DNA of 64,000 bases from contig NZ_JANFNG010000005.1 of NCBI RefSeq assembly GCF_024436035.1, positions 186,001 through 250,000 of the forward strand, in the 5' to 3' direction. Origin of the DNA: Streptomyces humicola. GTDB taxonomy: Bacteria; Actinomycetota; Actinomycetes; Streptomycetales; Streptomycetaceae. A program made the translations under genes and the position numbers. Shown here one piece after another: positions 17,912-43,096 of the stretch; position 1 is the first letter of the stretch, and each line of letters starts with the position of its first letter. Below the pieces are notes generated by a model, which did not search any database, was not told the DNA's origin, and saw only the letters and a list, made by a program, of their open reading frames with translations.

Positions 17912-18089
17912 GGGGTGGTGTCACCGGGCCCGAGGGGCGCCGTTGGAGACGCTGATGAGAGGTCTGACTACCGCCCCGCCGAGCGCAATGCCCGGCATCT
18001 CGCGGGCGGCAGGTCTGCATAACGTGGATGCGCGTGTACGGCGCCATCGCCCTGGCCAGCACCGCACGAGCCCTGTTCGGGAGGACGGG
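17912..18089 (+). ncRNA. probable IS110 bridge-RNA region (left end)
   Basis: The 178 nt between the left core repeat and the transposase start contain no convincing gene. In IS110-group elements such as IS621 this position and length encode the bridge RNA that selects target and donor DNA (established for the family). The call rests on position and size; I did not fold it. Confidence 0.4.
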
Positions 18090-25379: not shown

Positions 25380-26054
25380 TCAGACCCGTCGTACGGACGC
25401 GAACCACGCGGGCAGCGGCACGAGCTCCGTGCCGCTGCCCGGCAGCCGGGTGAGCATCGACGACTCCTCGAGCGACTCCACAACCCAGTCTCTGGCGAAC
25501 GCTTTACGCAGGTCCTTCTCCGTGAGGCGGGGCAGCAGCGTCATCACCGCCTCGGGTACTCCCAGTTCGACGAAGCGCCGCTGAACCTGTGCCGCGGCGT
25601 TCTCGCTGAGTTCCAGGAGAAAGACCTGCGCTCCCGGACGGCAGGCACGGTGAAGTGCGTGCACGTACCGGTCACGCATCGGTTCGGTGCAGGAGTCGAA
25701 GAGCCCGCAGTCCAGGACGGTGTCGAAGCGGTCCTGCCAGCTGTTCAGTTCGGTGGCGTCCGCCACGGCGAATTCGGCGGACAGGCCGCGCTCCTCGGCC
25801 TTGCGCCGCGCCTGCTCGATCGCCGCGGGCGAGATGTCCACACCGGTGGTCCGAAACCCGTGCGAGGCGATCAGAAGGGCATGCTCTCCGGTGCCGCACC
25901 CGACGTCGAGCACCTCACCGCGCAAGCGGCCCGAGGCGGCGAGGGAGCCGAGCGCGGGCTGCGGTTCCCCGATGTCCCAGGGGGCACGTCGGCCCAGTGG
26001 GGACCGTCCCCGGTAGATGGCTTCGAAGTCGAAGGGGCTGCTCGATGGCGTCAT
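25380..26054 (-). CDS. class I SAM-dependent methyltransferase
   Basis: A 224-aa Rossmann-type methyltransferase. Motif I is EVLDVGCGTGEHALLIASHG, followed by TTGVDISPAAIEQARRKAEE and the acidic post-I loop; FDTVLDCGLFDS corresponds to motif IV. Last gene of the 16-gene minus-strand operon; its ATG overlaps the stop of the FAD oxidoreductase gene (ATGA). Probable O- or C-methylation of the cluster product, or methyl-ester capping of a carboxyl group; the site cannot be told from sequence. Confidence 0.9.
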   Translation of the reverse strand: MTPSSSPFDFEAIYRGRSPLGRRAPWDIGEPQPALGSLAASGRLRGEVLDVGCGTGEHALLIASHGFRTTGVDISPAAIEQARRKAEERGLSAEFAVADATELNSWQDRFDTVLDCGLFDSCTEPMRDRYVHALHRACRPGAQVFLLELSENAAAQVQRRFVELGVPEAVMTLLPRLTEKDLRKAFARDWVVESLEESSMLTRLPGSGTELVPLPAWFASVRRV

Positions 26055-27286: not shown

Positions 27287-27329
27287 CTCAGCGAGTCCCT
27301 TCCTCGGTACGGTGGCGGTATGGCGGCGT

Positions 27330-28391
27330 TCAGTCGCCTGCGCCGGACTTGGCGAGCGCGTCCGCAAGCAGCCGCAAGGTGCGGATGCCGTCTTCGGTGT
27401 CCCGTGGGAAGACCATGGCGGACAACGTCGTGACGCCTGCCTCCTGGTAGGCGCGCAGCCGGTCGGCGACCTGGCTGACCGGGCCGAGCAGACAGGTCTG
27501 TTCGAGGAACCGCCGGGGGACCGCCGCCGCGGCCGCTCGGATCCGGCCGTCCAGGTAGAGTCGCTGCACCTCCTGGGCGGCGTCGGCATGACCGGTGCGG
27601 GCTGCCTGGCGGGTGTAGAAGTTGTGCAGCTTCGATCCCATCCCGCCGAGATAGTGGGCGGTGAACAGCCGCACTCGGTCGGCACAAGCGCCGGTGTCGT
27701 CACCGATCACCACTGGTACGGCGGCGACCACGTCGAACCCTTCGAGGGTGAGCCCTTGTGCCTTCCGGCCCGCCTGCGCCTGCGTCAACTGGTCCGAGCT
27801 CGCCTCCGGTTGGAAGAAGACCGACAGCCATCCGTCCGCGATCTCCCCGGCGAGCCGGGTGTTGGCGGGGCCGACCGCCGCCAGGTAGACCGGGAGGTCC
27901 TTGCGCCGGGGATGCATCCCGAGCCGGAGCGGCTTCCCTTCGCCGCCGGGAAGGGGCAGCGGATAGTACGTCCCGTCGTGCACCACCTTCTGCTCGGCCA
28001 GCACCTGACGGACGATCGCGATGTACTCGCGGGTCCGCACCAGCGGCCGCTCGAACCGTACCCCGTGCCACCCCTCGGAGACCTGCGGTCCGGAGACGCC
28101 CAGGCCGAGCCGGAACCGTCCCCCGGACAGCAGGTCGAGACTCGCCGCCGTCATCGCCGTCATCGCCGGTGTGCGCGCCGGGATCTGCATCGCCGCGGTG
28201 CCCAGCTCGATGCGCTCGGTTCGAGCGGCCAGCCAGGCGAGCACCGAGACGGCGTCGGAGCTGAATACCTCCGCGCTCCACACCACGCAGTAGCCGAGCC
28301 GCTCTGCTTCCTGGACGTACGCCAGCGACTCCTCGGGCGGCGGCGCTGCGGCGAGCCTGCCGAGATAGCGGAGGTTCAGGCCCAGTCGCAT
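27330..28391 (-). CDS. LLM-class F420-dependent oxidoreductase
   Basis: A 353-aa luciferase-like TIM-barrel oxidoreductase. Landmarks: MRLGLNLRYLG start, LGTAAMQIPARTPAMTAMTA, GRFRLGLGVSGPQVSEGWHG and REYIAIVRQVLA, a pattern typical of actinobacterial F420-dependent members. One-base overlap with the upstream hydrolase stop. In the cluster it may reduce a double bond or imine, or oxidise an alcohol. F420 rather than FMN use is family inference. Confidence 0.9.
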   Translation of the reverse strand: MRLGLNLRYLGRLAAAPPPEESLAYVQEAERLGYCVVWSAEVFSSDAVSVLAWLAARTERIELGTAAMQIPARTPAMTAMTAASLDLLSGGRFRLGLGVSGPQVSEGWHGVRFERPLVRTREYIAIVRQVLAEQKVVHDGTYYPLPLPGGEGKPLRLGMHPRRKDLPVYLAAVGPANTRLAGEIADGWLSVFFQPEASSDQLTQAQAGRKAQGLTLEGFDVVAAVPVVIGDDTGACADRVRLFTAHYLGGMGSKLHNFYTRQAARTGHADAAQEVQRLYLDGRIRAAAAAVPRRFLEQTCLLGPVSQVADRLRAYQEAGVTTLSAMVFPRDTEDGIRTLRLLADALAKSGAGD

Positions 28392-29359
28392 CAGCGCGGG
28401 GCTCCTTCCAGTGTGTGGAGTGAGTGGTGCAGGAAGTCCAGGACGGTGCGGGTATAGGTCTCCCGGTCAAGCGCCAGGGTCTGCAGGTGGTCTGCCCTCG
28501 GGACGGTGAGCGTGCGGGCCGTGGGGTAGTGGGCCGCCACACGCCGGGTCTCCTCGGGATGGATGATGCGGTCCTCGGCGCCCGTCACGAAGAGCATGGG
28601 TGTGCCGCCGGCCCCGCCGCGTTCCGGAGGCGGCGGCCAGGGCCGGTGCCCGCCCAGCGTCATGCGAGTGAAGAAGGCGAGCGCGGCCTCGACGGCGTCG
28701 CGGGCCGGCGGCCGCCGCACGCCCCGCGGCAAGGACAGCACACCGGCGCGCAGCAGCCGCCCGGGGATCAGCGACGGGTCCGGGCTCGGGCCACCGTCGA
28801 AGACGGCGGCGTCAACGGCGAGTTCGGGAAGGAACATCGCCCGCAGCATGGCGAAGGTGGCCAGCGAGAAGCCGTACAGCACCAGCTGGCATCCGGCGTA
28901 CTCCGGCAGGCGGCGGACGTGACGGATCACCTGGACCACGTCGTCGACGAAGCGGAGGTAGTAGCCAGTGAGCCCCCGGTCACGGAAGCTGTCGCCGTGG
29001 TTGCGGAAGTCGAACAACAGCACCGTGAACCCGGCCCGGTGCAGGAACCTGGCGTGGGGGAGCACGCTGGTCTTGTCCCGTCCCAGCCCGTGGCCGAGCA
29101 CTACGACGCGGCGCGGGTCGCCCCGGCACAGCCATGCGCTCAGCTCGCCCGCACCGGGGAGCGGAATGCGCAGGTCCTCGGGGTACAAGCCGAAGCGGGC
29201 CGCGGTGTGCCGCCGCTCCGGCAGGGGAGGGTGGAACAGCGCATGCACCAACTGCCAAGCGGCCAGGGGCGCGACCGGCAGGCCGAGCACTCCCGCGAGC
29301 AGCGAGGCAGTGGCCCTGGGCCTGGGCCTGAGGAATGGCCGGATCGTCTCGTCAGACAA
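28391..29359 (-). CDS. alpha/beta-hydrolase
   Basis: About 322 aa. The nucleophile elbow is LVLYGFSLATFAML (Ser in GFSLA, with Ala instead of the usual Gly after the elbow), the oxyanion region is VVLGHGLGRDKTS, and the late Asp and His are in VTGAEDRIIHPEE and RADHLQTLALD. One hydrophobic segment near the N terminus (ATASLLAGVLGLPVAPLAAW) suggests membrane association. TTG at 29359 is chosen: GGAGG lies five nucleotides upstream and it overlaps the FabG stop by eight bases; an ATG at 29419 would overlap FabG by 68. It could be a release or editing hydrolase of the pathway. Confidence 0.82.
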   Translation of the reverse strand: MSDETIRPFLRPRPRATASLLAGVLGLPVAPLAAWQLVHALFHPPLPERRHTAARFGLYPEDLRIPLPGAGELSAWLCRGDPRRVVVLGHGLGRDKTSVLPHARFLHRAGFTVLLFDFRNHGDSFRDRGLTGYYLRFVDDVVQVIRHVRRLPEYAGCQLVLYGFSLATFAMLRAMFLPELAVDAAVFDGGPSPDPSLIPGRLLRAGVLSLPRGVRRPPARDAVEAALAFFTRMTLGGHRPWPPPPERGGAGGTPMLFVTGAEDRIIHPEETRRVAAHYPTARTLTVPRADHLQTLALDRETYTRTVLDFLHHSLHTLEGAPR

Positions 29360-30092
29360 CCAGGCCTCCGTCCACTCCCAGCACCTGGCCGGTGACGTAC
29401 CCGGCCTGCGGGGAGACAAGGAAGGACACCACGGCCGCGACCTCCTCCGGGGCGCCGGATCGCCCGAGCGGGACGCGTTCCAGGATGCCGTCTCTTACCC
29501 TGGCGGCCAGGGGCTCGGTCATGTCGGTGTCGATGAGTCCGGGGGCCACTGTGTTGGCGCGGATACCGTACTTCCCGCACTCCCTGGCCAGGGACTTGGT
29601 GAAGCCGATGATTCCCGCCTTGGAAGCCGCGTAATTGCTCTGAGTGGCGCTGCCGTGGACGCCGGCGACCGACGACATTGTCACCACGCAGCCGGAGCGT
29701 CGCTTCATGAATGAGAAAACGCAGGCTCGGCAGATGTTGTAGGTGCCGTCCAGATTCGTCGTCAGGACCTCGTCCCAGTCCTCCTGGGTCATCCGCAGCA
29801 GCGGGTTGTCCCTGATCACCCCGGCCGAGGTCACGAGGACGTCCAGCGGACCGAGCTCGTCCTCGGCCTCGGTCACGAAGGCGCGGGCTTGCGCAGGGTC
29901 CGCCACGTCGGCCTGGCGGGCGATGACCCGGGCCCCGGCGGCGGAAGCCGACGTCACCACTTCCTCGGCCGCCGCGGCGTCCGACCGGTAGCAGAACGCC
30001 ACATCGAACCCGTCGCCCGTCAGGCGTTCCACGACGGCGCGGCCGATGCCCCGGGAACCGCCGGAGACCAGGGCCACCCTGCGCCCGGACAC
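29352..30092 (-). CDS. 3-oxoacyl-ACP reductase (FabG-like ketoreductase)
   Basis: A 246-aa SDR with the usual FabG length. Cofactor motif SGGSRGIGRAVVERL; catalytic SSVAGVHGSATQSNYAASKA (Ser, Tyr, Lys); C-terminal YVTGQVLGVDGGLVV. GTG at 30092 is chosen because conserved sequence starts there and AGGAGAAAGG lies upstream; a GTG overlapping the ACP stop (30122) is possible. Directly after ACP-1 in the operon: it would reduce the beta-keto group of the ACP-bound chain. Confidence 0.92.
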   Translation of the reverse strand: MSGRRVALVSGGSRGIGRAVVERLTGDGFDVAFCYRSDAAAAEEVVTSASAAGARVIARQADVADPAQARAFVTEAEDELGPLDVLVTSAGVIRDNPLLRMTQEDWDEVLTTNLDGTYNICRACVFSFMKRRSGCVVTMSSVAGVHGSATQSNYAASKAGIIGFTKSLARECGKYGIRANTVAPGLIDTDMTEPLAARVRDGILERVPLGRSGAPEEVAAVVSFLVSPQAGYVTGQVLGVDGGLVV

Positions 30093-30118
30093 CTCCCCGC
30101 CTTTCTCCTGACGTGTTG

Positions 30119-30382
30119 TCACGAGCTGGCCGCCAACTTGGCCGAGACCAGATCGACGACCTGGGCGAGCGAGGTGACCTGCTTGAAGTCCGACTCCTCC
30201 ATCTTGACCCCGTACCGCTTCTCGAGGTTGACCACGATCTCCAGCGCCATCAGGGAGTCGACCTCGAGGTCCTCGACGAGATGGGTGTGGTCGTCGATCT
30301 CCTTCACGGGCAGTTCGAGGGCGTCGGCGATGAGGGAGCGCAGCTCCTCCTTGTCGACGGTGACCTGGCTGCTGTCGGACAT
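30119..30382 (-). CDS. acyl carrier protein (ACP-1)
   Basis: An 87-aa four-helix carrier protein with the canonical phosphopantetheine site LEVDSLMALEI and acidic helices typical of ACPs. AAAGGAAG precedes the ATG. Located between the enoyl-reductase-like SDR and the ketoreductase, so probably the extension carrier of the type II system. Confidence 0.93.
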   Translation of the reverse strand: MSDSSQVTVDKEELRSLIADALELPVKEIDDHTHLVEDLEVDSLMALEIVVNLEKRYGVKMEESDFKQVTSLAQVVDLVSAKLAASS

Positions 30383-30421: not shown

Positions 30422-31228
30422 TCAGGCGGTGAGGCTTTCGCCGCCGTCGACGCCGATCACGTTCCCGGTGAGCCAGGAGGAGTCGGGCGTCGCGAGCAGG
30501 GTGACGATCTCGGCGACGTCCTCCGGTTCGGTCAGCCGGCCGTGCGGGTTGCGGCCGAGGGACGCCTCGGCGTACCTGTCCGCACCGGGGATCTTGCGCA
30601 GGGCCGGAGTGAGGGTGGTGCCTGCACGCAGGGCGTTCACCGCGATGCCCCGTGGGGCGAGTTCCACGGCCAATTGGCGCACGTGCGATTCCAGAGCGGC
30701 CTTGGCAGCCGAGACGGGCCCGTAGTCGCCAAGGACGCGGGTGCTCCCGGCGCTGGTCATCGCGAAGATCTTTGCACCAGACGGCAGCTGGCCGGCGGCG
30801 AGTAGGTCCTGCACCCAATAGACCAGGCTGTGCGCCATGACGTCCACGGTCATGGCCATCTGACGCGGTGAGACGGTCTCCGTCCCGGCGGAGGCATCCG
30901 TCGGGGGCACGAACGGCATCAGCGAGCCGAATGCAAGCGAGTGCAGCAGCACGCGCAGCCCGTTGCCGTCGGTAAGTTCCGCGATCTGGGACACGACCTC
31001 GGAGCGGGTCGCCGGGCTGGCCGCGTTGAGATTGAAGAAGTGGGCGCGGACCCCTGTGGCGTGCAGGTCGTCCGCCAGTTTGGTGGCGCTCTCCTGGCCC
31101 TCGGCCGTGTCGAAGTGGACGCCCACGATGTTGCCTCCCTCGGCGGCCACGGCTCGTGCGGTGGCACGGCCGAAACCGCTGGAGACGCCCAACACCAGGG
31201 ACCAGGATCCTTGCAGGGACGTTCTCAT
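30422..31228 (-). CDS. enoyl-ACP-reductase-like SDR (FabI/FabL type)
   Basis: A 268-aa SDR. The cofactor loop is LVLGVSSGFGRATARAVAAE; the active-site line is GDYGPVSAAKAALESHVRQL, where Tyr and Lys are separated by six residues (Y-x6-K) as in FabI/FabL, rather than the Y-x3-K of ketoreductases. GVHFDTAEGQ and LRAGTTLTPALRKIPG also fit the enoyl-reductase branch. The start has GAGGAG upstream, two bases after the previous stop. It suggests that at least one double bond of the chain is saturated. A ketoreductase function is the main alternative. Confidence 0.8.
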   Translation of the reverse strand: MRTSLQGSWSLVLGVSSGFGRATARAVAAEGGNIVGVHFDTAEGQESATKLADDLHATGVRAHFFNLNAASPATRSEVVSQIAELTDGNGLRVLLHSLAFGSLMPFVPPTDASAGTETVSPRQMAMTVDVMAHSLVYWVQDLLAAGQLPSGAKIFAMTSAGSTRVLGDYGPVSAAKAALESHVRQLAVELAPRGIAVNALRAGTTLTPALRKIPGADRYAEASLGRNPHGRLTEPEDVAEIVTLLATPDSSWLTGNVIGVDGGESLTA

Positions 31229-31230
31229 GG

Positions 31231-32214
31231 TCAACTCCTCGCGCTCATGGTCCGGTGACTGATCGTCTGCTCCCCGGCATGCCGGGCGGGCCTCACCCGG
31301 GCCATCGTGACCGCCCCCTCGGCTGCCGCAGTGATCACGACGCGCTCCGGGCCGCCTCCGGCGAGCGCGCCGACGACATGGCGCATGGGGGTGAGGCACC
31401 CGGCTCCGGCGCGGACCATACGCGTCTCGACGGGCCGCCGGGCCAGCCATGACGCCACCGCGCCGCCAATGGCGGAGTCGTCGAGCACGGCGTCGACGAG
31501 CACCGGGCCCGGCGCCCCAGCGCATACCACGTTCCAGGCCCGCGTCAGCGCCGGGTCGGGCTCGCCTCCCGGCTCCAGGAAGACATCGCCGATCCGGCAG
31601 TCTCCGTAGGCGGTTTCCGCTGCTGTGGACGCGGCAGGGCCGCAGACCAGTACGGCGGCTCCGCAGTCACTGTGCGAGCTGCCCGGTTCGCTCTCGGGGA
31701 GGCGTTCCTCCGTGACGCCGACGAGCAGCAGGTCCGCCCGCCCGCATGCCAGTGCCCGCCCCGCGAGCCGCAGCGCCTGAAGGCCCGCGGTCCGCGGCGA
31801 GTTGGCGGTGAGGCAAAACCCACGCACGCCGTGTTCCGTGGCGAGGCGCGAGGCGAACAGGCTCAGCACGAAGAACGGCGCGGTGAGCGGGCCGATCTCG
31901 TCGGCGCTGGAGGCGAGGATCACGCCATCCTGATGTTCGGTCAGCTCCATGGCGGCGTTGTTGGTGGCGACGACCAGCCCGCGTCGTTCATCGGGCACGC
32001 CGTCGAACGGGGCGTCCGCGTCGGCCAGTGCGTTCCGGGCCGCGGCGAGCAGGTACTGGCAGGCGGCCGGCAGCCGTTTGTATCCCCGTCCGGGCAGGGC
32101 ACAGGAGACGTCGAACCATCCGGGCGACGGTTCCTGACGGGGCGCGGCGGCATCCGAAGGCTTGGCCACCCCGGGGCAGGTGATCCCCAGACCGGTCACC
32201 ACGAGCTCGCTCAT
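31231..32214 (-). CDS. ketosynthase-like protein without catalytic Cys (CLF-like 3)
   Basis: A 327-aa degenerate thiolase-fold protein. The N-terminal MSELVVTGLGITCPG is KS-like, but the active-site loop reads FCLTANSPRTAGLQALRLAG: the nucleophilic Cys position is lost, and the HGTGT and GHxxGxxG motifs are not recognisable. Its ATG overlaps the stop of the intact KS at 32211 (ATGA), so the two are translated as a pair, like KS-alpha and chain-length factor. The frame is open upstream to 32484 but that is antisense-free overlap with the KS gene and is not used. Confidence 0.82.
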   Translation of the reverse strand: MSELVVTGLGITCPGVAKPSDAAAPRQEPSPGWFDVSCALPGRGYKRLPAACQYLLAAARNALADADAPFDGVPDERRGLVVATNNAAMELTEHQDGVILASSADEIGPLTAPFFVLSLFASRLATEHGVRGFCLTANSPRTAGLQALRLAGRALACGRADLLLVGVTEERLPESEPGSSHSDCGAAVLVCGPAASTAAETAYGDCRIGDVFLEPGGEPDPALTRAWNVVCAGAPGPVLVDAVLDDSAIGGAVASWLARRPVETRMVRAGAGCLTPMRHVVGALAGGGPERVVITAAAEGAVTMARVRPARHAGEQTISHRTMSARS

Positions 32215-33410
32215 GCCGCCTCCTGCGCTTCGGTGACGACGAGCGAGACGTTGGTGCCTCCGAAGGCATAAGCGTTGACCAGGACCGACGCCGGGGCGAG
32301 CGGCACCGGGTGGTCCTGCGGGATCCAGACCGGGCACTCGGGATCGGGATCCTGCAGAGCCGGGCTCGCCGGCATCGAGCGGTGCCGGATGAGCAGCGCG
32401 GCGGCGAGGCAGCCGAACGCGCCGGCGGCACCGGCGGTGTGCCCGATCATCGCCTTGAGGTTCAGCAGCGGCAGCCGATCGCACCGTTCGCCGAACACCT
32501 CGCGCAGCGCATAGCTCTCCACCGCGTCGTTGAGCGGGGTGCCGGTGCCGTGCGGGATGACGCCCCCGATCCGGTCGGCATCCGTGCCGGCGTCGGTGAG
32601 CGCGTCCCGTATCGCGCGGACGGCCTGTACGGCGGATGGCTCCGGCGCGGTCAGATGGTGGGCATCGCAGCTCCAGGCGAAGCCGGCCAGTTCGGCGTAC
32701 GGCACCGCACCGCGCCGGTCGGCATGTTCGGCCGACTCCAAAACCAGCATCGCCGAGCCGTCACCGAAGACCGTGCCCTTGCGGTGGCGGTCGAACGGAC
32801 GGCAGGCCTCCGGATCGGCCGCGCCCAGCCGGTTGAAGACGCCGAGGCCGACGCGCGTGGGCCCCTCGGCGCCGCCGGCGAGGACGATCTCGGCCTCGCC
32901 TTCGCGGATCATGTCCGCAGCGACGGACACGGCGTAACCGCTCGCGGCACACGCGTTGCCGACGCTGACGTTGCTGCCCCGTGCCCTGACCGCGGTAGCG
33001 GCGGCCGAAGCCGTGACGGTCAGCGGATTCCACGGGCCGTCGGGATCCGCGGGCGTGCCGGCCGCGCGTCGTGCCTCGTGCATAGCCGCGTTCCCCATCT
33101 CCACGCCCATGACCACCGGCATGGCGGAACAGAACTGCGGGCCGAGCGCCGCATCGGCGACCGCCTCACGGGCCGCAGCGACCGCCATCCGCGGGCCGGG
33201 GCCGAGCGGCACATGACCGTGGTGAGCGGGGGCCACCGGGACGGCATCCCCCGGTACCAGGTACATCAGAGGCGACCGCATATGCGCCCGCGGATCCGGC
33301 AACGGCACAGGACGCGCCCCGCCGACCAGCAGGCCCTGCCAGAACCGCGCGACGCCGGACCCCAGAGGGGAGACGGCCCCCAAACCCGTGATGAGAACCC
33401 GCCGGCTCAT
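32211..33410 (-). CDS. beta-ketoacyl synthase (KS-3, catalytic)
   Basis: A 399-aa KS with a complete triad: Cys154 in VGNACAASGYA, His287 in PHGTGTPLND, His324 in KAMIGHTAGAAGA. The closing NAYAFGGTNVSLVV is the normal KS C terminus. ATGA-type overlaps on both sides (with the dead KS genes at 33407 and 32214). It should catalyse decarboxylative Claisen elongation on ACP-bound chains, paired with the following CLF-like protein. Confidence 0.93.
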   Translation of the reverse strand: MSRRVLITGLGAVSPLGSGVARFWQGLLVGGARPVPLPDPRAHMRSPLMYLVPGDAVPVAPAHHGHVPLGPGPRMAVAAAREAVADAALGPQFCSAMPVVMGVEMGNAAMHEARRAAGTPADPDGPWNPLTVTASAAATAVRARGSNVSVGNACAASGYAVSVAADMIREGEAEIVLAGGAEGPTRVGLGVFNRLGAADPEACRPFDRHRKGTVFGDGSAMLVLESAEHADRRGAVPYAELAGFAWSCDAHHLTAPEPSAVQAVRAIRDALTDAGTDADRIGGVIPHGTGTPLNDAVESYALREVFGERCDRLPLLNLKAMIGHTAGAAGAFGCLAAALLIRHRSMPASPALQDPDPECPVWIPQDHPVPLAPASVLVNAYAFGGTNVSLVVTEAQEAA

Positions 33411-34372
33411 GAGACGCCTGCCGCGGCGGTGAGCAGCAACGCCGCTGCCGCGTCGTCACGGGGCTCACCGCCGGCCACGGCGAGGACGGCCCCAACGCTG
33501 TCCTCGCGCAGGTGGCTGACCCCGGCTGCGCCTTGCAGCACGCCCAGCGCTCCCGAACAGTGGCCGAGCCGAGCGGTGAGATCGAGGACACGCCCGTCAC
33601 CGGGAAGAGGGCCACCATCTCGGGCCAGCAGGAGGCTGATCGGCCCGGGGGCGGTCGCCCGGACGCGGGCCAACGCCTCGTCGGAGCGCGGCGATCGTGC
33701 GTATCCGCGCAGTTGGGCTAGGGCGGGCACGCCGCGGCGCGTCGCGTGGCCCACGGCCTCCACGACCAGCGCGGCGGCCCCGTCCAGCCGCGGCCTCCCG
33801 GTCCCGTCGTCGAGCAGCCGCGCGACCGGCTCGGTGTCCGGTTCCACGCCGACGACGAGCACCACCTCGGCACGCCGGGCGGCGATCAGGTTGGCCGCCC
33901 AGTGCAGCGCGTCAAGACCGCTCGTCGCGCCGTTGCACAGCGTCACGTTGGGGCCGCGCATCCGGTAGCGGATGGCCAGCCAGCCGGCGATCTCGTTGGT
34001 GGACGTCTGAGGAAGTCCGAGCGGGCTCAGCCCGGTGACGGTGTGTTCAGCGATGGTGTCCGCGAACTGGCACACGCTGTCGAGGTTTCCCAGATTGCAA
34101 CTGACAACGACGGCGGTGGCGTGCTCCGGGCCGGTGTACCGCTCGCCGTCGGACAGGCCCGCCTCGTTCAGCGCCGGTTCGGCGGCCCGCAGCGCGAAGC
34201 GCGAGGCCCGGTCCCTGTGGCGCAGGTCGCGACCGCGCAGCCCGGTCTCCGGGTCGAAGCCCGCTGCGGACGCTGCCCGGCCCGCCGCCAGCAGGTCCCC
34301 AGGCCCGGCGACGCCCGAGACGGCGATGCCGCACCCGGTCACCACCGCGTCCTTCAGTTCCGGCCTCATCAT
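33407..34372 (-). CDS. ketosynthase-like protein without catalytic Cys (CLF-like 2)
   Basis: A 321-aa KS fold. The nucleophile loop is LCNGATSGLDAL; aligned with NACAASG the Cys position is Gly, and the HGTGT motif is gone, while a GHCSGALGVLQGA segment is retained. It begins MMRPELKDAVVTGCGIAVSG. ATGA overlap with the upstream intact KS (34369). Interpreted as chain-length-factor-like partner of KS-2. Confidence 0.85.
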   Translation of the reverse strand: MMRPELKDAVVTGCGIAVSGVAGPGDLLAAGRAASAAGFDPETGLRGRDLRHRDRASRFALRAAEPALNEAGLSDGERYTGPEHATAVVVSCNLGNLDSVCQFADTIAEHTVTGLSPLGLPQTSTNEIAGWLAIRYRMRGPNVTLCNGATSGLDALHWAANLIAARRAEVVLVVGVEPDTEPVARLLDDGTGRPRLDGAAALVVEAVGHATRRGVPALAQLRGYARSPRSDEALARVRATAPGPISLLLARDGGPLPGDGRVLDLTARLGHCSGALGVLQGAAGVSHLREDSVGAVLAVAGGEPRDDAAAALLLTAAAGVS

Positions 34373-35505
34373 GCCCCCTTCTCCAGGACCGCCACCGCGT
34401 TGATCCCGCCGAAACCGAACGCGTTCACTTGCGCGACGGCGAGATCGGCCGTGGCCGCCATCCCGCGTACCAGCCGCAGTGAACGAGCCTGTTCGATTGG
34501 GTCGTTCAGCCCCAGGACCGGAGCAACCACCCCCTTCTGCAGCGACAGGGCGGCCATGACCAGGCTGAGCAGACCGGAACCGCCCAGCGTGTGGCCGGTC
34601 ATCGACTTGATGGCGGTGAGCAGCGGCCCCTCGACGGCATCACCGAGCACCTGGCACATCGCCGCCGCCTCGACCTCGTCGTTCAGCTGGGTACCGCTCC
34701 CGTGCAGCATCACCAGGTCGATGTCGCGGGCCGTCACACCCGCCCGCCGATAAGCGTCCTGTACCGCCCAGACGATGCCCTCGGGGTCCGGTGCGGTCGG
34801 ATGGTGGGCGTCGCAACTCATGCTCACGCCGCGGACCACGGCGTGCACCCGGCCGGCCGTCGCCGTGCCCGAGCGCTGCACCACGGCAGCCACCGCGCCC
34901 TCCCCCATCAGCATTCCGCTGCGTTCCCTGTCGAACGGCCGCAGGGCCTCGGGCGTGCGGTTCTGCACCCGGTCCAGGGAGCCGAAGGCGCTCTCGGTGA
35001 TGGAATCCGTGCCGGCCACCACGACCGTGTCGGCCTGGCCCAGCTCGATCATGTCGGTGGCCATGCCGAGCGCGTACAGTGCGGCGGCACAGGCGTTGGC
35101 GAACGTGTAGCTGTACGGCGTGCCAAACTCGTTCCGCAACGTGGGACCGAAGTGCAGATCGCAGGAGGAGAACTCGGTGCCCTGACGCCACCACAGCTCG
35201 GCCGAGCGCTGCTCGCGCAAAGTCGTGCCGACGAGCACGGGGCGGGACCCGATTCCCTCGAGTCCGGCGTCCGCCAGGGCCTGGCCGACGGCGGCGCGCA
35301 GCCAGCGTGACGCGCGGAAGGGCTCGTCGGGTTCCGGCCCGGCGCGGTCGTCGATCTCATAGGCACAGCGGGCCCGGTACTTCGCGGCATCGAAGGCGCG
35401 CAGCGGACCCAGCCCGCTGCACCCCGCGCACAGGCCGTCGAAGATCTCGTAGGGGTTGGATCCGAGCGCCGACACCGCTCCGATTCCCGTGATGTCCCAG
35501 CTCAT
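34369..35505 (-). CDS. beta-ketoacyl synthase (KS-2, catalytic)
   Basis: A 378-aa KS with Cys139 in FANACAAALYAL, His268 in LHGSGTQLND and His305 in KSMTGHTLGGSG. Slightly unusual HGSGT in place of HGTGT. ATGA overlaps with the CoA-ligase gene upstream and the CLF-like gene downstream. Its place right after the aryl-CoA ligase makes it a candidate for the first condensation on the aromatic starter (inference). Confidence 0.93.
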   Translation of the reverse strand: MSWDITGIGAVSALGSNPYEIFDGLCAGCSGLGPLRAFDAAKYRARCAYEIDDRAGPEPDEPFRASRWLRAAVGQALADAGLEGIGSRPVLVGTTLREQRSAELWWRQGTEFSSCDLHFGPTLRNEFGTPYSYTFANACAAALYALGMATDMIELGQADTVVVAGTDSITESAFGSLDRVQNRTPEALRPFDRERSGMLMGEGAVAAVVQRSGTATAGRVHAVVRGVSMSCDAHHPTAPDPEGIVWAVQDAYRRAGVTARDIDLVMLHGSGTQLNDEVEAAAMCQVLGDAVEGPLLTAIKSMTGHTLGGSGLLSLVMAALSLQKGVVAPVLGLNDPIEQARSLRLVRGMAATADLAVAQVNAFGFGGINAVAVLEKGA

Positions 35506-37040
35506 CGTCGCGCCGCCGCCTCTCGGTCACGCAGCTGGAACCGGGCCAGCTTGCCCGTGGACGTGGTGGGCAGAGCGTCCAGCACCTCCACCCGCGCCGG
35601 CCGTTTGAACGGCGGCAGCTGGGTGCGGACAGCCACCAGGACAGCCCGTCGTAGCTTGTCGCGTGGAGTTCCCGGCACCGGGACGGCATAGGCCACCGCC
35701 TGCTGCAGCCCGTCCGCGTCGGTGGCGCCGACGACGGTGCACTCCGCGACCCCGGGAGCGGTTCGGATCACGTTTTCGATCTCGCTGGGCGCGACCTTGT
35801 AGCCGCCGAGGTTCAGCAGGTCGTCGGCACGGCAGACGTAGCGTATGTCGCCATCCTCGGTCCGTCGCACGATGTCACCGGTGAACGCGCCGCGGTGGGC
35901 GAAAGTCCGGGCGGTCGCATCCGGGCGGTTGAGATAGCCGAGGGCGACCGAGGGGCCCGCAATGTGCAACCGGCCCTCGATGCCGTCGGGGACCGGATCT
36001 CCGTCCTCGTCGCGAACGGTCACGGTCACTCCGCGCACCGGCTGGCCGGTCGAACCCGGCAGGGGCCGGGCCGCACTGGTGGCGACGCAGATGTGCAGCA
36101 GCTCCGTCGCACCCAGACCGTTCACCAGCGGCGCCCCGAGCACCGCCGGAACGCGTTCGGCGAGGTGTGCCGGGCAGTGTTCGCCAGCCGTCACCGCCAG
36201 CCGGAGGGAGCCGATCCCGGAGATGGTGCCACTGTCGGCCATGGCCAGCAGCGCCGCGTACATGCGTGGTACCGAGAACAGCACGGTCGGGTGGTAGCGC
36301 CGCAAGGCGGCGGCGGCGATCTGAGCGTCCACCGGCCCGCGCAGCAGTGTCACGCGGGCCCCCGCAGCCAGGGGGAACAGCACCGAGTTGCCGAAGCCGA
36401 AACCGAAGGACAACTTCGCGGTGGACAGCACGACATCGTCCGTACGCAGCGCCAACACACTGCCGAATCCGCCGAGTACCCCGTCGATCCCGGCGGCCGA
36501 GTGCAGCACGCCCTTGGGATGGCCGGTGCTGCCAGAGGTGTACTGGACCAGGACCGGGTCGGCGTCGGGCCACACCGCAGGCGCGGCCGCCTGCTCCGGG
36601 CGATGCGCCGGTCCCTCGCGTCCGGTCCTGACCGACTCCCGGACCTCGCCACCGCTGGTGCGTGGCAGCGAGTCGAACAGGGCCTCCAGGGAGGCCTGCC
36701 TGGCGGGCGACATGGCGTCAACGTGGACCACACCGGCCCCGCAGTCCTCAGCGAGGAATCGGATCTCCTCGTCGGAGAGCGCGGGGCTGACCGGAACCGG
36801 CACGCATCCGTGCCACCACATGCCGAGCACCGCAACAACGGTCGCCACCGAGTCGTCTGCGATCACCAAGCCGCGCGTGCCCGGCACGAGCCGAGCTGCA
36901 CGCAGCGCACCGGCGTACCCCCGGGCCGCCGTATGCAGCCGGGCGTACGTCACCTCACCCAGGTCCGGATCGAGGTAACTCACCCGGTCACCGCCGCCGC
37001 GGTCCAGGTGGACTCCCACCAGGCGTTCCAACAGGTTCAT
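35502..37040 (-). CDS. AMP-dependent acid-CoA/ACP ligase, benzoate-CoA ligase-like
   Basis: A 512-aa ANL-superfamily enzyme. Motifs: P-loop QYTSGSTGHPKG, KLSFGFGFGNSVLFPLAAGA (typical of benzoate/hydroxybenzoate-CoA ligases), NGLGATELLH, TGDIVRR, and the C-terminal Lys in PTTSTGKLARF. ATG at 37040 chosen: homology starts MNLLERLVG and it overlaps the previous stop (ATGA). With the DAHP synthase and PhzE-like genes in the same cluster it most likely activates a chorismate-derived aromatic acid (anthranilate or another aminobenzoate) as the starter unit and passes it to an ACP. Substrate is inference. Confidence 0.9.
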   Translation of the reverse strand: MNLLERLVGVHLDRGGGDRVSYLDPDLGEVTYARLHTAARGYAGALRAARLVPGTRGLVIADDSVATVVAVLGMWWHGCVPVPVSPALSDEEIRFLAEDCGAGVVHVDAMSPARQASLEALFDSLPRTSGGEVRESVRTGREGPAHRPEQAAAPAVWPDADPVLVQYTSGSTGHPKGVLHSAAGIDGVLGGFGSVLALRTDDVVLSTAKLSFGFGFGNSVLFPLAAGARVTLLRGPVDAQIAAAALRRYHPTVLFSVPRMYAALLAMADSGTISGIGSLRLAVTAGEHCPAHLAERVPAVLGAPLVNGLGATELLHICVATSAARPLPGSTGQPVRGVTVTVRDEDGDPVPDGIEGRLHIAGPSVALGYLNRPDATARTFAHRGAFTGDIVRRTEDGDIRYVCRADDLLNLGGYKVAPSEIENVIRTAPGVAECTVVGATDADGLQQAVAYAVPVPGTPRDKLRRAVLVAVRTQLPPFKRPARVEVLDALPTTSTGKLARFQLRDREAAARR

Positions 37041-38092
37041 AACCGACCTCGTTTCGCGGATATCACTTCGATGCCGGCCGCGCCACCGGCGCCGACCGCC
37101 AGGACCAGCGAGCGCACCGGAAGCCCCGGTTCGGCAGACGCTGCAGCGCACGCGGCGAGCGCCGCGGCCCCGCCCGCAGCACCGAGATCACCAGCGACCT
37201 CCTCGATCCGGTGGCACGGGACGCCGCACACGCGGCTGACGACAGCCGCCACGGCGCCGCCCCCGGCTCCCGTGGACAACGCGACCATCTCCGGCGGCCG
37301 TTCCATGGCCGCCAGACAACTGCGCAGAAAGGACTCCAGCGCAGCATCACTGCCTGACGCGACGTCGGCGGAGCGAATCAGGGGCCGTATCCGGGCCACT
37401 TCGTTCCCCACCGTGTCAGCCCCGCCGAGGACGAGACAGACCGCGCCCTCGGAGTGCCCTGCCGCCGCGCGATCCGCCGCAAGGCGCCATCCGGAAACAC
37501 CCGCGGACGCACCCACCACAGCTCGAGCAGCCTCTCCTCTCACCAGCAACCGTGCGGCCTCGAACAGTGCGTGCGCCCCCGCGTCCCGGTCTCCGGCGAG
37601 ATTGAGGTAGGGACCCTCCAACGAGAGCGCCACCGACAGCGCCGTCGCACATCCGGTGAACGCCGAGCGGGCCGCGCGCAACGGCGAGACTGGCCCAGCG
37701 CCCGCCGACGCCAGCTCCGAGCACAGCGCTGCGTACTCCTCCAGACCTGCCGTGGACGTCGCCCAGACGGTCGCTGTCCGTCCGGCCACCGCGCCGCCAC
37801 CGCGGCCAGCCGCCTCCAGCGCCGCTCGGGCCGCGGCCAGCGCATGCGTCACCTCACCGCCTCCACCCGGTGCGGCAGCGCCCGCGGTCCGGCCGCGACC
37901 GGGCGCCGCCGGAGCCGAACAGAGCCCGACCTGTCCGTCGGCGACGGCCGTCCGCGCACCAGGAAGGGCGAACCGCCGGTGAACAAGACGTACCTCGCGC
38001 CGCAGGGCGAGACGGGCCGCGAGCTGTCCGGCGTCTGCGGCGCAGGGCAGCCGCACACCCACCCCCGCTACGCCGACCGACTCACCGTTCAT
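37037..38092 (-). CDS. ketosynthase-like protein without catalytic Cys (CLF-like 1)
   Basis: A 351-aa strongly diverged KS-like protein, Ala/Gly-rich. The nucleophile loop reads LNLAGDRDAGAHALFEAARL, with Asp at the Cys position; no HGTGT. It begins MNGESVGVAGVGVRLPC, with GGAGGTGG directly upstream, and overlaps the intact KS stop by 11 nt. The third of three dead-KS partners in the operon. Confidence 0.75.
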   Translation of the reverse strand: MNGESVGVAGVGVRLPCAADAGQLAARLALRREVRLVHRRFALPGARTAVADGQVGLCSAPAAPGRGRTAGAAAPGGGGEVTHALAAARAALEAAGRGGGAVAGRTATVWATSTAGLEEYAALCSELASAGAGPVSPLRAARSAFTGCATALSVALSLEGPYLNLAGDRDAGAHALFEAARLLVRGEAARAVVGASAGVSGWRLAADRAAAGHSEGAVCLVLGGADTVGNEVARIRPLIRSADVASGSDAALESFLRSCLAAMERPPEMVALSTGAGGGAVAAVVSRVCGVPCHRIEEVAGDLGAAGGAAALAACAAASAEPGLPVRSLVLAVGAGGAAGIEVISAKRGRL

Positions 38093-39320
38093 GACCACCT
38101 CCCGCACGCGACAGCAGCAGCGCGCAGACCCCGCCGCCCATGCCGAAGGCCAGGCTCGTGACCAGGGCCACCCGCCCGGCACGCCCCTCGGGAGGCACCA
38201 GGTCGATCCCCGAGCAGGCGGGGTCGGGCCGCCGCAGCCCACCGTTCCCCGGCATCCGTCCGACACACAGCGCCTGCACGGCCACCACCGCCTCCAGGGC
38301 CGCGGCCGCACCCAACGCATGGCCGAGGACCCCCTTGAGCGAGGACACGGACGGCGGGCGCCGGCCGGCGCCCCGCAGCCCGGTGGCGATCGCCCGGGCC
38401 TCGATCCCGTCGCTCGCCGGAGTGCCGGTCCCGTGTGCGCAAACCCAGTCGACCTCCTCCGGACGGCGCCCGGCATCCCGCAGCGACCGGCGCAGGACGT
38501 CAATGACCGCGTCCCCGGAGGGCCGCGGGCGGGTCAGGTGATAGGCGTCGGCGGCACACGCCCCGGCGAGGAGCAGCGCATGCGGCACTCCGCCTCGCTC
38601 GGCGCAGTGCCGGGCGCTTTCCAGGACCACGACACCAGCGCCTTCGGCGAGGCGGGTGCCGTCGCGGTCGGCGTCGAACGGCCGCACCGCCCCCCGCGCG
38701 AGCGCCCGCATGCCCGTGAACATGGCGAAGACTTCCTCGGACAGCTCCTCCGCACCGCCGCAGATGGCCAGATCGACCTCGCCGCAGGCGATCGCGGCGG
38801 CCCCGCGGACGATGGCGTCGCCACCCACCGAGCACCCGGACGCCAGCACGACACTCGGCCCGTTCACTCCCACCACGCCGGGCATCAGATCCAGCAGACG
38901 CTCCGGCTGTGCCCATGCGCCACCGGCAGCGAAGGAGAGCGGGCCGCCGCCCCGAATCCCGCGGTCCAGTACGGGCCGTGTACCCATGACCGTTCCGACG
39001 AACAGGCCGACGCGGGAGCCAGGCGCCGGCGGGCCGGCGTCGCGCAGCGCCTCCACGGCGGCGGCGGCCAGGAACCGCGCCGCGAGGGATTCATGCGCCG
39101 CCACAAGGCCGTCGAGCGCCACGAGCGCAGCCGGCGGCACCTCCCCAACCTCATCGGTGGGATATCCCGAGGCGTCGAAGCGGGTGACGCGCCCGCTCGC
39201 AGGCTTGCCGTCGCGGACCGCCGCCCACAGCGCGCCCCGCCCCAGGCCGGCCGCGGACACCGCACCGAGGCCGGTGACCACGGGAACCGCCCCGAACCGT
39301 CGCGGCACATGCTCGGCCAT
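38082..39320 (-). CDS. beta-ketoacyl synthase (KS-1, catalytic)
   Basis: A 412-aa KS with Cys163 in VLASGCSVGGDAI, His296 in AHGTGTPASD and His334 in KGVLGHALGAAAA. The loop GCSVGG differs from the usual ACASG. One-base overlap with the ACP-2 stop (TGATG). Probably partners with CLF-like 1, translated immediately after it. Confidence 0.92.
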   Translation of the reverse strand: MAEHVPRRFGAVPVVTGLGAVSAAGLGRGALWAAVRDGKPASGRVTRFDASGYPTDEVGEVPPAALVALDGLVAAHESLAARFLAAAAVEALRDAGPPAPGSRVGLFVGTVMGTRPVLDRGIRGGGPLSFAAGGAWAQPERLLDLMPGVVGVNGPSVVLASGCSVGGDAIVRGAAAIACGEVDLAICGGAEELSEEVFAMFTGMRALARGAVRPFDADRDGTRLAEGAGVVVLESARHCAERGGVPHALLLAGACAADAYHLTRPRPSGDAVIDVLRRSLRDAGRRPEEVDWVCAHGTGTPASDGIEARAIATGLRGAGRRPPSVSSLKGVLGHALGAAAALEAVVAVQALCVGRMPGNGGLRRPDPACSGIDLVPPEGRAGRVALVTSLAFGMGGGVCALLLSRAGGGHER

Positions 39321-39577
39321 CAGACCACCACGCCCTTGCGCCGCAGGAGATCGAGCGCGTCCGCGATGCTGCGTACGCCCGTCATCTCCTCCGGCGCCAG
39401 CGAGACGGCGAACTCACGCTCCAGCCGAACGGATATCTCGACCTTCTCCAGGGAGCTGACCGAGAGCTCTTCGTAAAAGGACGCACTCAGGCTTATGTCG
39501 TCCGCGTCCATCTCGAGGACCGTCGCCACGATCCCGCGCAGTCGCTCACCGGCTTCCTGTTGCGCTACGGCAGCCAT
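39320..39577 (-). CDS. acyl carrier protein (ACP-2) with SSL in place of DSL
   Basis: An 85-aa carrier protein beginning MAAVAQQEAGERLRG. The phosphopantetheine site reads ELSVSSLEKVEI, so the conserved Asp before Ser-Leu is replaced by Ser; the modified Ser and hydrophobic helix II are kept. ATG 39577 has GGAAGG about 14 nt upstream; an alternative ATG at 39604 adds nine residues. First carrier after the DAHP synthase and adjacent to KS-1; it may hold the aromatic starter while ACP-1 carries the growing chain (inference). Confidence 0.85.
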   Translation of the reverse strand: MAAVAQQEAGERLRGIVATVLEMDADDISLSASFYEELSVSSLEKVEISVRLEREFAVSLAPEEMTGVRSIADALDLLRRKGVVV

Positions 39578-39626
39578 GGGAAGACCGTGCCTTCCGTCAT
39601 CCACGCTTCGTCGCCTCTTCGCTTCG

Positions 39627-40835
39627 TCAGCTGGTCCAGGCAGCGGCTGTGGCCAACGCCTGTTGGGGATTGAGCCGCGGATCGCACAGCGTCGTGTAGC
39701 GTTCGCCCACCCGGTCGATGGGACATTCCGCGGAGACGCACTCGGTCACCGGATCCGCGGTGGCCTCCAAGTGCAGTCCGCCCGGGACGGCCTGCGCCTC
39801 GCCGAGGGCCTCCTGGAAGGCGCACACCTCACGGATCACCGCCTCCAGCATGCGCGTCTTGCGACCGTCCGGGGCCTGGACCGTGTTGGCGTGCAGGGGA
39901 TCGCAGAGCCAGATGACCGGATGGCCCTCGTCCCGCACCCGGGAGGCGAGTCGTGGCAGCCGCTCGGCCACCCTGGTGGTACCCATGCGGACGATGAGGG
40001 TGAGTCTTCCCGGCTCCCGGCAGGGGTCGAGACGCTCGCACAGGCCCAGCAGTTCGTCTTCGTCCATTCCCGGCCCGACCTTGCAGGCAACCGGGTTGGC
40101 CACAACAGACAACAGCCGTACGTGAGCACCATCCAGTTGGCGGGTGCGGTCGCCGATCCAAGGCCAGTGCGTCGAGGCCAGTAGCAGCCGTCCGTCGACG
40201 TCACGCCGGAGCAAAGGAAGCTCGTAGTCGAGGAGGAGGGCTTCGTGGCTTGTCCAGACGCGGTCCTCGGCGCTACGCAGGAATGCCATCGCACGGGCGG
40301 CGGCTTCGTAGCACAGGGTCAGCCGCAGCGGATCGGGGCACCGGGACTGCACGGTGGCATCCGGCCCGTTCACCAAGTGACCTCGGTAGACCGGAAGTTC
40401 AACTCCACCTACCCACTCGCTGGAGGCGGAACGCGGCTTGGCGAACTGGCCGGCGATGCGGCCTGCGCGCACGACCGGCAGTCCCGATCCCATTCGCATG
40501 ACGCCCGCGATGGCCTGCAGCAGCCCGAGCTTGCGCGTGACGTGTTCCGGGGCGCATTCTGCGGGGTCTTCGGCGCAGTCACCCGCCTGTATCACCCGCA
40601 TCCGGCCCGCGGCCGCTTCGGCGAGCAGCGAGCGCAGGACGTCGATCTCGGCTCCGGTGACCAGCCCCGGCAGGCGCGCCAGGTCCTTCCTGACCTCCCC
40701 GACCAACCACTCATCCCCCCAGGAGGGCTGCTGAGCCGCGGAAAGACAGAGCCACGAGCGCATTTCCTCCAAGGAGAGCGAGAATTGCGGATCCATGGGA
40801 CCTGACCAGGTCATTCCTAGCCTTCCGCCGTCCAT
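39627..40835 (-). CDS. class II 3-deoxy-7-phosphoheptulonate (DAHP) synthase
   Basis: About 402 aa. It carries the type II (plant/PhzC-like) hallmarks: VIQAGDCAEDP near residue 100, VVRAGRIAGQFAKPRS, THEALLLDYE, HWPWIGDRTR, NPVACKVGPGM and VIWLCDPLHANTV. Starts at 40835, 40814 and 40796 are all possible; AGGAAGG lies upstream of the first. First gene of the 16-gene operon. An extra, cluster-borne DAHP synthase raises shikimate flux to chorismate for a pathway that consumes an aromatic acid, as in phenazine and anthramycin-type clusters (family knowledge). Confidence 0.93.
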   Translation of the reverse strand: MDGGRLGMTWSGPMDPQFSLSLEEMRSWLCLSAAQQPSWGDEWLVGEVRKDLARLPGLVTGAEIDVLRSLLAEAAAGRMRVIQAGDCAEDPAECAPEHVTRKLGLLQAIAGVMRMGSGLPVVRAGRIAGQFAKPRSASSEWVGGVELPVYRGHLVNGPDATVQSRCPDPLRLTLCYEAAARAMAFLRSAEDRVWTSHEALLLDYELPLLRRDVDGRLLLASTHWPWIGDRTRQLDGAHVRLLSVVANPVACKVGPGMDEDELLGLCERLDPCREPGRLTLIVRMGTTRVAERLPRLASRVRDEGHPVIWLCDPLHANTVQAPDGRKTRMLEAVIREVCAFQEALGEAQAVPGGLHLEATADPVTECVSAECPIDRVGERYTTLCDPRLNPQQALATAAAWTS

Positions 40836-41010: not shown

Positions 41011-41155
41011 CTTCAGGCCTCTTGAAAGTCTCGGGAACCGCGAAGGAGCGGTATTCGCATCCATCGATCCAGATCACCGAAACGGATACGTGGATCCGCA
41101 GGGGTTCCACCGAAGCGGACCGACGCAGAAAGAAACGACAACGACGGGTGAACCA

Positions 41156-43096
41156 GTGTGCAACGACGACCTGCGCCGTGAGGGCACCGCCCGGCCCGAT
41201 ATTCTCTCCTGGATTCTCCGACGGCCCGAACCGCCTCCGTTCGCGCTGCTCCACCGCGGAACGTCCACACCAGGCGCCGAGGTGGAGATTCTCGTCGGTG
41301 AGACGGCGACTGTCGGCAGTCTGAGCGAACTTCCGTTGCGCGACACCAAGGAGTGCCGCGGGCGGCCGAAGCACGACCTGCTGGTGCTGGTGCCATACCG
41401 CCAGATCACCGAGCGCGGCTTCGACTGCCACGACGACGGCACACCGCTTACCGCCCTGAGTATTCAGGCCCAGAGCGCCGTACCGGTCGACACGGTGTTT
41501 CGGGCTCTCCCCGACCGGCCCGTCCGGCTCGCTGCCGACGCCGGCTTCGACACCGAGGACGCAGAATACGCCGCCACCGTGCAGCAGATCGTCTCGGAGG
41601 AGATCGGAAACGGCGAGGGGGCGAATTTCGTGATCCGCCGCTCCTTCGCGGGTACCGTAGCGGGACGACCGATCGACGCTGCGCTCACGGTATTCCGCCG
41701 GTTACTGGCCACCGAGACCGACGCCTACTGGACCTTTCTCATCTTCACCGGTTCCCGCATCCTGGTCGGCGCCTCACCGGAAGGGCATGTGACGCTCGAC
41801 GCCGGAAACGTGCTGATGAACCCGATCAGCGGCACCCTTCGCCACTCCCCCAGCGGCGTCACCCTACCCACGGTCCTGGAATTCCTCACAGACCGAAAGG
41901 AGATCGACGAGCTCTACATGGTCGTTGACGAGGAACTGAAGATGATGTCCCGGTTCTGCGAACCGGGCGTGCAGGTCATCGGTCCCGGGCTGAAGGAGAT
42001 GTCGCGCCTCACGCACACCGAATACACGCTGACCGGCCGCAGTCGGCGCGATGTCCGGGAAATCCTGCGCGAGACCATGTTCGTCCCCACCGTGACCGGC
42101 AGCCCACTGGAGAACGCCTGCCGAGTGATCAAACGGTACGAACCGAACGGCCGGGGCTACTACAGCGGCGTGCTCGCCCTCATCGGCCAGGACGGCGAGG
42201 GCCTGCCCACGCTCGACTCCACCGTCTTGATCCGTACCGCGGAACTCGACGGCGCCGGCGCCCTGCGGGTGGGCGTCGGAGCAACGCTGGTCCGTCACTC
42301 GAACCCCGCCTCGGAGGTGGCGGAAACGCGGGCGAAGGCGGCCGCCGTCGTAGGCGCCCTGACTAATGACGTCGCATCACCTGCGGTGGAGCCGAGGCGG
42401 CCTGAAGCGCCGTCGCCGCCACTGGCCGGTCATCCGGACGTCCGCAAGCTGCTCGAACGCCGGAACCAGGCCCTCTCCCGCTTCTGGCTCCAACCCCCCG
42501 GACCGCGCGTCTACACCCGTCCCGAACTGGCCGGACGCTCCGCACTGGTCCTCGACAGCGCGGACACCTTCACCGCCATGCTGGGCCACCAGCTCGCCGC
42601 GCTGGGAACCGATGTCGTCGTCCGACGGTATGACGAGCCCTTCGAGACCGCGGGCTTCGACGTCGTCATCGTCGGCCCGGGGCCCGGAGATCCACGTCAG
42701 AGCAAGCATCCGAAGATGCACGTGCTTCGCAGCACCGTCCGCAGGCTGCTGGACGAGAACCGTCCCTTCCTGGCGGTCTGCCTCGGGCACCAGATCCTCT
42801 GCGACGTGCTGGGGCTGCCGATCGTGCGCAAGGCCGCCCCCAACCAAGGCCTCCAGCTGGACATCCCCTTCCTCGGGGTGCGGACGCGGGTCGGGTTCTA
42901 CAACACCTTCGTCGCCCTGTCGCAGACCGACCGCCTCCCCGACGACGTGATCGTGGTCCGCGACCCGGCCACGTGCGAGGTGCACGCCTTGCACGGCCGC
43001 CGGTTCTCCTCCACCCAGTTCCACCCGGAATCCGTACTGACCGAGCACGGAGTGGACATCCTCGGCGATCTCCTCACCCTCGCCCTGAAGCCATAG
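41156..43096 (+). CDS. PhzE-type fused chorismate amination enzyme (anthranilate/ADIC synthase), TTA codon
   Basis: A 646-aa fusion. The N-terminal two thirds are a chorismate-utilising TrpE-like domain: NGEGANFVIRRSF, GASPEGHVTLDAGN, VLMNPISGTLRH, TGSPLENACRVIKRYEPNGR. The C-terminal third is a class I glutamine amidotransferase: AVCLGHQILCDVLG (Cys nucleophile) and FSSTQFHPESVL (His, Glu). This order and length match PhzE and related anthranilate synthases. It makes 2-amino-2-deoxyisochorismate or, with pyruvate loss, anthranilate. No PhzD-like isochorismatase gene is in the cluster, which favours anthranilate (inference). GTG at 41156 is chosen by homology; codon 183 (41702-41704) is TTA. 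Divergent from the main operon. Confidence 0.9.
   Translation: MCNDDLRREGTARPDILSWILRRPEPPPFALLHRGTSTPGAEVEILVGETATVGSLSELPLRDTKECRGRPKHDLLVLVPYRQITERGFDCHDDGTPLTALSIQAQSAVPVDTVFRALPDRPVRLAADAGFDTEDAEYAATVQQIVSEEIGNGEGANFVIRRSFAGTVAGRPIDAALTVFRRLLATETDAYWTFLIFTGSRILVGASPEGHVTLDAGNVLMNPISGTLRHSPSGVTLPTVLEFLTDRKEIDELYMVVDEELKMMSRFCEPGVQVIGPGLKEMSRLTHTEYTLTGRSRRDVREILRETMFVPTVTGSPLENACRVIKRYEPNGRGYYSGVLALIGQDGEGLPTLDSTVLIRTAELDGAGALRVGVGATLVRHSNPASEVAETRAKAAAVVGALTNDVASPAVEPRRPEAPSPPLAGHPDVRKLLERRNQALSRFWLQPPGPRVYTRPELAGRSALVLDSADTFTAMLGHQLAALGTDVVVRRYDEPFETAGFDVVIVGPGPGDPRQSKHPKMHVLRSTVRRLLDENRPFLAVCLGHQILCDVLGLPIVRKAAPNQGLQLDIPFLGVRTRVGFYNTFVALSQTDRLPDDVIVVRDPATCEVHALHGRRFSSTQFHPESVLTEHGVDILGDLLTLALKP

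Follow-up and report, generated by a model that had tools for sequence, protein, structure and literature searches.

How does a single type II polyketide synthase (PKS) operon make use of three ketosynthases (KS), each followed by a related protein that has lost its catalytic cysteine? The question is raised by positions 31,231 to 39,320 of a 64,000-nucleotide stretch of Streptomyces humicola DNA (hereafter the window), from an actinobacterial genome of 7.07 Mb. The original prediction, made from the letters of this stretch, had described three consecutive pairs of a catalytic and a dead KS, each taken as a heterodimer of KS and chain length factor (CLF). The region is read here, with reasonable though not full confidence, as the core of an aryl-acid-primed, reducing type II PKS cluster in which three obligate KS-CLF heterodimers would work in series. 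Three KS-CLF pairs are already precedented, and what is new is their joining to an aromatic-acid ligase and a dedicated aromatic-acid supply, the genes that the original prediction had missed.

Catalytic residues were called from a FabF-anchored alignment of 170 KS and CLF proteins (89 KS and 81 partners). KS1, KS2 and KS3 have the complete Cys-His-Lys-His set, and the residues first proposed for them (C163/H296/H334, C139/H268/H305 and C154/H287/H324) were exact, with the catalytic Lys present as well. CLF1, CLF2 and CLF3 are without the Cys, the first His and the Lys alike. The loss of Cys had been recognised in all three, but the Asp and Gly named as replacements in the first two were one position off, the residues aligned to the nucleophile being Arg169 in CLF1 (AGD-R-DAG), Ala149 in CLF2 (CNG-A-TSG) and Arg141 in CLF3 (NSP-R-TAG). 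Across the alignment the full set is kept in 87 of the 89 KS, while Cys is gone from every one of the 81 partners and none of these retains both His and Lys. Sequencing error, which had been named as a possible source of the Cys losses, was ruled out since the same losses are conserved in other genera. Two KS2-clade proteins (L092:13981-15111 and L097:7125-8246) keep Cys and the last His and have Gln for the catalytic His and Glu for Lys.

No Pfam family matched CLF1 (37037-38080 searched). Its AlphaFold2 (AF2) model, with a mean local confidence (pLDDT) of 64 and a predicted TM score (pTM) of 0.71, had the ishigamide CLF chain at the head of its Foldseek matches (E 6e-13) and could be aligned with numerous KS folds (Z about 29), so that CLF1 is, as modelled, a shortened KS fold. 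One relative of CLF1 (L113:11178-12329) has an in-frame tandem repeat insertion (PDAGLLAGPGLL-like) close to the C-terminal strands.

Which dead protein belongs to which KS could not be told from translational coupling alone, and coupling was dropped as proof of pairing: the predicted stop/start overlaps are real (11 bp for KS1/CLF1, 4 bp for KS2/CLF2 and KS3/CLF3), but the CLF1/ligase, ligase/KS2 and CLF2/KS3 junctions overlap as well, so that every junction from KS1 to CLF3 does. The three pairs do share one operon, but they are not strictly consecutive, as the ligase gene sits between pair 1 and pair 2.

Phylogeny of the KS-fold proteins, which the original prediction had suggested as a check, was more informative. 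The KS tree and the CLF tree (with Shimodaira-Hasegawa-like branch support, SH-aLRT) resolved into matching clades 1, 2, 3 and a, the main clades with SH-aLRT of 99-100. When loci were scored for their clade sets (n=46), KS and CLF sets were identical in 40, the exceptions being loci with one CLF unrecovered, and adjacent KS→CLF neighbours were of the same clade in 62 of 62 cases. Six further loci, all from other genera, hold pair 1 with an unchanged partner gene; three Phytohabitans genomes and one Micromonospora genome carry this pair without pairs 2 and 3, and pair 2 stands alone in loci L039-L045 and L058. No other partner was present in the stretch examined in either case. In S. coacervatus JCM 17138 (L109:9995-12169), KS1 and CLF1 form a single 724-aa open reading frame (ORF), a possible natural KS-CLF fusion. 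Tree distances over the same 18 loci correlated at 0.95/0.94 for matched partners versus 0.89/0.89 for mismatched ones (bootstrap difference 0.055, 95% 0.012-0.100). The matching trees, same-clade neighbours, lone pairs and fusion ORF indicate that each dead protein very probably forms a heterodimer with the KS next to it and, with the pair-specific rate correlation, bear out the three heterodimers originally predicted, as far as comparative sequence analysis can. KS2/CLF2 and KS3/CLF3 are sister clades in both trees (FastTree 1.00; SH-aLRT 80 and 88), which suggests that one of these pairs probably arose through duplication of a whole pair.

What feeds the pairs is suggested by their neighbours (Table 1). 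The best PDB matches of the ligase were benzoate-CoA ligase, then gramicidin synthetase adenylation domains and anthranilate-CoA ligase 4wv3, and its NCBIfam match to benz_CoA_lig (E 2e-95) lies below the family cut-off; by these matches it is of the benzoate/anthranilate-CoA ligase type, at family level only. The TrpEG/PhzE-like fusion has its best NCBIfam matches to anthranilate synthase, below equivalog cut-offs, is found at 60-62% in orthologous clusters, is additional to the genome's other chorismate enzymes, and is a likely dedicated supply of anthranilate or aminodeoxyisochorismate (ADIC). Together with the gene for 3-deoxy-D-arabino-heptulosonate 7-phosphate (DAHP) synthase, it points to anthranilate or a close relative as the most likely starter. 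An acyl carrier protein (ACP), ACP1, is encoded next to either KS1 or the ligase in the majority of aryl-type loci, and loci L110-L113 of Phytohabitans and Micromonospora hold a minimal ACP-KS1-CLF1-ligase cassette; with the thioesterase domain found fused to its ligase in Micromonosporaceae, this cassette suggests that pair 1 suffices for extension of an aryl starter. In L113 the thioesterase domain is fused to the ligase, and an MMPL transporter lies nearby.

The proposed route would begin with DAHP synthase and the TrpEG/PhzE-like synthase supplying an aromatic acid derived from chorismate, most probably anthranilate, which the benzoate-CoA-ligase-like enzyme would place on ACP1. KS1-CLF1 would then perform the first condensation or condensations on the aryl-ACP, as its stand-alone cassette implies, and KS2-CLF2 and KS3-CLF3 would lengthen the aryl-bearing chain on ACP2 with the ketoreductase (KR) and perhaps the short-chain dehydrogenase/reductase SDR1, following the precedent of the ysf cluster. 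Hydrolase or thioesterase, F420 enzyme, flavin adenine dinucleotide (FAD) enzyme and methyltransferase would finish the product.

Table 1. Features of the putative aryl-primed cluster, in window coordinates. The minus-strand genes form one operon, transcribed in the order listed; the first and the last two rows are the cluster edges.
Feature	Position	Strand	Evidence and remarks
TrpEG/PhzE-like fusion (Chorismate_bind + GATase)	41090..43096	+	Pfam; divergent to operon
Class II DAHP synthase	39627..40835	-	PF01474 E 7e-125
ACP1, candidate starter carrier	39320..39604	-	PP-binding E 2e-11
KS1, catalytic C163/H296/K329/H334	38082..39320	-	FabF-anchored alignment
CLF1, dead KS1 partner, Arg169 at Cys position, 351 aa	37037..38092	-	AF2 + Foldseek; apparently fused to KS1 in S. 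coacervatus
Putative aryl acid:CoA/ACP ligase, benzoate-CoA ligase family	35502..37040	-	AMP-binding E 1e-68
KS2, catalytic C139/H268/H305	34369..35505	-	Alignment; closest PDB chain ishigamide KS 6kxd_A
CLF2, dead KS2 partner, Ala149, 321 aa	33407..34372	-	ketoacyl-synt E 2e-15
KS3, catalytic C154/H287/H324	32211..33410	-	Alignment
CLF3, dead KS3 partner, Arg141, 327 aa	31231..32214	-	ketoacyl-synt E 4e-10 (searched as 31231-32217)
SDR1, FabL/FabI-like reductase	30422..31228	-	Pfam enoyl-(ACP) reductase; NCBIfam FabL best, below cut-off
ACP2	30119..30382	-	PP-binding E 9e-17
KR, FabG-like ketoreductase	29352..30122	-	Pfam/NCBIfam
Alpha/beta hydrolase	28391..29290	-	Kept in L089 and L109
LLM-class F420-dependent oxidoreductase	27330..28391	-	TIGR03559 above cut-off
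FAD-dependent monooxygenase-like, exact start unsure	26051..27310	-	57-63% in L046, L089, L090
S-adenosylmethionine (SAM) methyltransferase	25380..26054	-	Domain search
Hot-dog (4HBT_2) thioesterase-like	24926..25357	+	73% identical in L089, same cluster edge
LuxR-type (LAL) regulator	22399..24885	+	GerE domain; 43% homologue in L089

The original view that a single KS/CLF is the norm and three are remarkable was overstated: cinnamoyl-lipid clusters in general have two or three pairs, the youssoufene (ysf) and globisporamic-acid (gla) clusters have three (PMC9381841), and the mbg cluster has four, with pairing proven experimentally (PMC13311259). A division of labour between the pairs, as had been suggested, is plausible and has a precedent in ysf. 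According to PMC9381841 (citing Deng 2021), YsfB-C initiates, YsfD-E builds a C18 chain and YsfJ-K extends it to C20-22; the same paper likens the third gla pair to YsfJ-YsfK, which acts on benzene-ring-containing intermediates. Among the loci compared, L091 has the order KSa, KS2, CLF2, two genes, KS3, CLF3, SDR, then further on CLFa, ACP, two FabA-type dehydratases, KR and a DSBA-like isomerase, which fits the description of the gla cluster (GlaE, F-G, J-K, Q, R, S/T, U, V; PMC9381841). KS2/CLF2, KS3/CLF3, SDR, ACP and KR of the window correspond by clade and synteny to such L091-type loci, themselves identified by gene order, and an SDR1 counterpart also directly follows KS3-CLF3 in ysf/gla-like clusters; judged by synteny, pairs 2 and 3 would be the counterparts of pairs two and three in such clusters. 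In contrast to these clusters, the window has no initiator pair, KS1 and CLF1 falling into different clades from KSa and CLFa, and it is without the two FabA-type dehydratases, the P450 and the DSBA-like isomerase (no DSBA among the Pfam-scanned cluster genes). In their stead it has the ligase, ACP1, KS1-CLF1, DAHP synthase and the TrpEG/PhzE-like gene.

Other systems resemble the window in part. Aurachin synthesis is primed with anthranilate and uses one KS-CLF pair (PMC10295502), and compared by gene content, the aua/rau/sau clusters resemble the window in combining an aromatic-acid ligase with ACP, KS and CLF, the likely starter being anthranilate; they have a prenyltransferase, of which there is none among the Pfam-scanned cluster genes, whereas the window has three pairs, KR and SDR. 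Cispentacin AmcB/F/G/H likewise form, by description, a unit of ACP, KS, dead partner and adenylating enzyme comparable to ACP1-KS1-CLF1-ligase, and the dead partner belongs to a pair that does one extension and cyclisation (PMC10698177), but that pathway has a 2-oxoglutarate starter, a single pair and a hot-dog decarboxylase. The mbg o-dialkylbenzene cluster (BGC0002441), also likened by description, has several KS and CLF with specific pairing. Canonical aromatic type II PKS differ in having a single KS-CLF with aromatase/cyclase, and no aromatase/cyclase was found among the scanned cluster genes. The genome's own aromatic-type KS/CLF (L006, L008) fall outside clades 1, 2, 3 and a. I found no description of an anthranilate-primed multi-pair type II PKS or of such a cluster in a literature search that mostly left out subscription papers.

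Several observations weigh against the serial, aryl-primed reading. The cluster has no dehydratase, with no FabA-type match in the genome and no MaoC match in the window; for a polyene or a fully reduced chain, the housekeeping MaoC-type enzymes would be needed. In L039-L045, KS2-CLF2 lies directly behind the ligase, with an ACP and without KS1, so the order of the pairs is not fixed by these data and the aryl starter may go directly to KS2-CLF2. The identity of the starter is drawn from the neighbouring genes and from similarity at the level of families. A one-base assembly error could be the source of the S. coacervatus fusion, and the AF2 model of this fusion (pLDDT 43, pTM 0.41) was too poor for anything to be concluded.

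The layout of L039-L045 would also suit pairs that do not act serially on one chain: KS1-CLF1, ACP1 and the ligase would make an aryl ketide, and KS2 and KS3 with ACP2 and KR a second chain or alternatives, the pieces being joined later. The presence of two ACPs and the free-standing KS1-CLF1-ligase-ACP1 of Micromonosporaceae, thioesterase included, agree with this arrangement, yet the cluster has a single ligase and a single evident starter supply, the genes from KS1 to CLF3 overlap throughout as one operon, and the closest functional precedent, ysf, works serially (PMC9381841); the arrangement is considered unlikely. Slightly better placed, though still doubtful, is the idea that at least one dead partner serves as a cyclisation factor, as has been proposed for AmcG of cispentacin, and not as a chain length factor, its pair giving a single extension and ring closure, for example to a quinolone. 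The partners are short (351/321/327 aa), AmcG lacks both functional motifs and part of the CLF secondary structure in a pair, AmcF-AmcG, that does a single extension and cyclisation (PMC10698177), and ring closure of an anthraniloyl ketide would yield a quinolone, as it does in aurachin (PMC10295502). On the other side, the likeness to AmcG is by description, the best structural matches of CLF1 are ishigamide CLF, and short CLFs occur throughout the ysf/gla-like clades too. That one pair is merely a redundant paralog of little function would agree with the probable duplication behind pairs 2 and 3, but the active sites of all three pairs are intact and all three are kept in three genomes at 46-75% identity, which makes it very improbable. 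Three obligate heterodimers in series on an aryl-primed chain remain the preferred reading.

The three genomes are those of the window, G214 (L089) and S. coacervatus (L109), the only ones among the genomes searched with aryl priming and three pairs; the searches, a single genome scan for two patterns of eight residues plus sampled genome searches, were limited in sensitivity. In G214 and S. coacervatus the cluster as a whole is conserved. A phylum-wide sample of 395 gave no further genome with KS1 at E 1e-60, and a plasmid collection gave only distant KS matches (<60% identity). Two loci (L101, L102) have two KS3/CLF3 pairs in divergent orientation and no KS2. Of the finishing genes, the F420-type oxidoreductase is kept in L089 and partial at the L109 edge, and no counterpart of the methyltransferase was found in L089. 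An IS110-family transposase (17955-19292) lies on the hydrolase side of the cluster. Outside it, at 45882-54343, two overlapping genes encode a 1638-aa CHAT-domain protein and a 1181-aa right-handed beta-helix/AAA protein; a nonribosomal peptide synthetase was rejected there on these Pfam assignments.

Relatives with pair 1, pair 2, pairs 2 and 3, or pairs 1, 2 and 3 next to the same ligase family amount to a natural deletion series, which makes it directly testable whether chain length and order in type II PKS depend on the number and identity of the KS-CLF pairs. As targets of genome mining, these relatives also offer a new aryl-primed scaffold. A more tentative thought is that of a fixed-order, discrete assembly line, in which each KS-CLF pair would take one defined step on the aryl-primed chain and the movement of entire KS-CLF cassettes among clusters with one, two or three pairs would add or remove steps. 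If true, KS-CLF cassettes would move much as modules do in type I systems.

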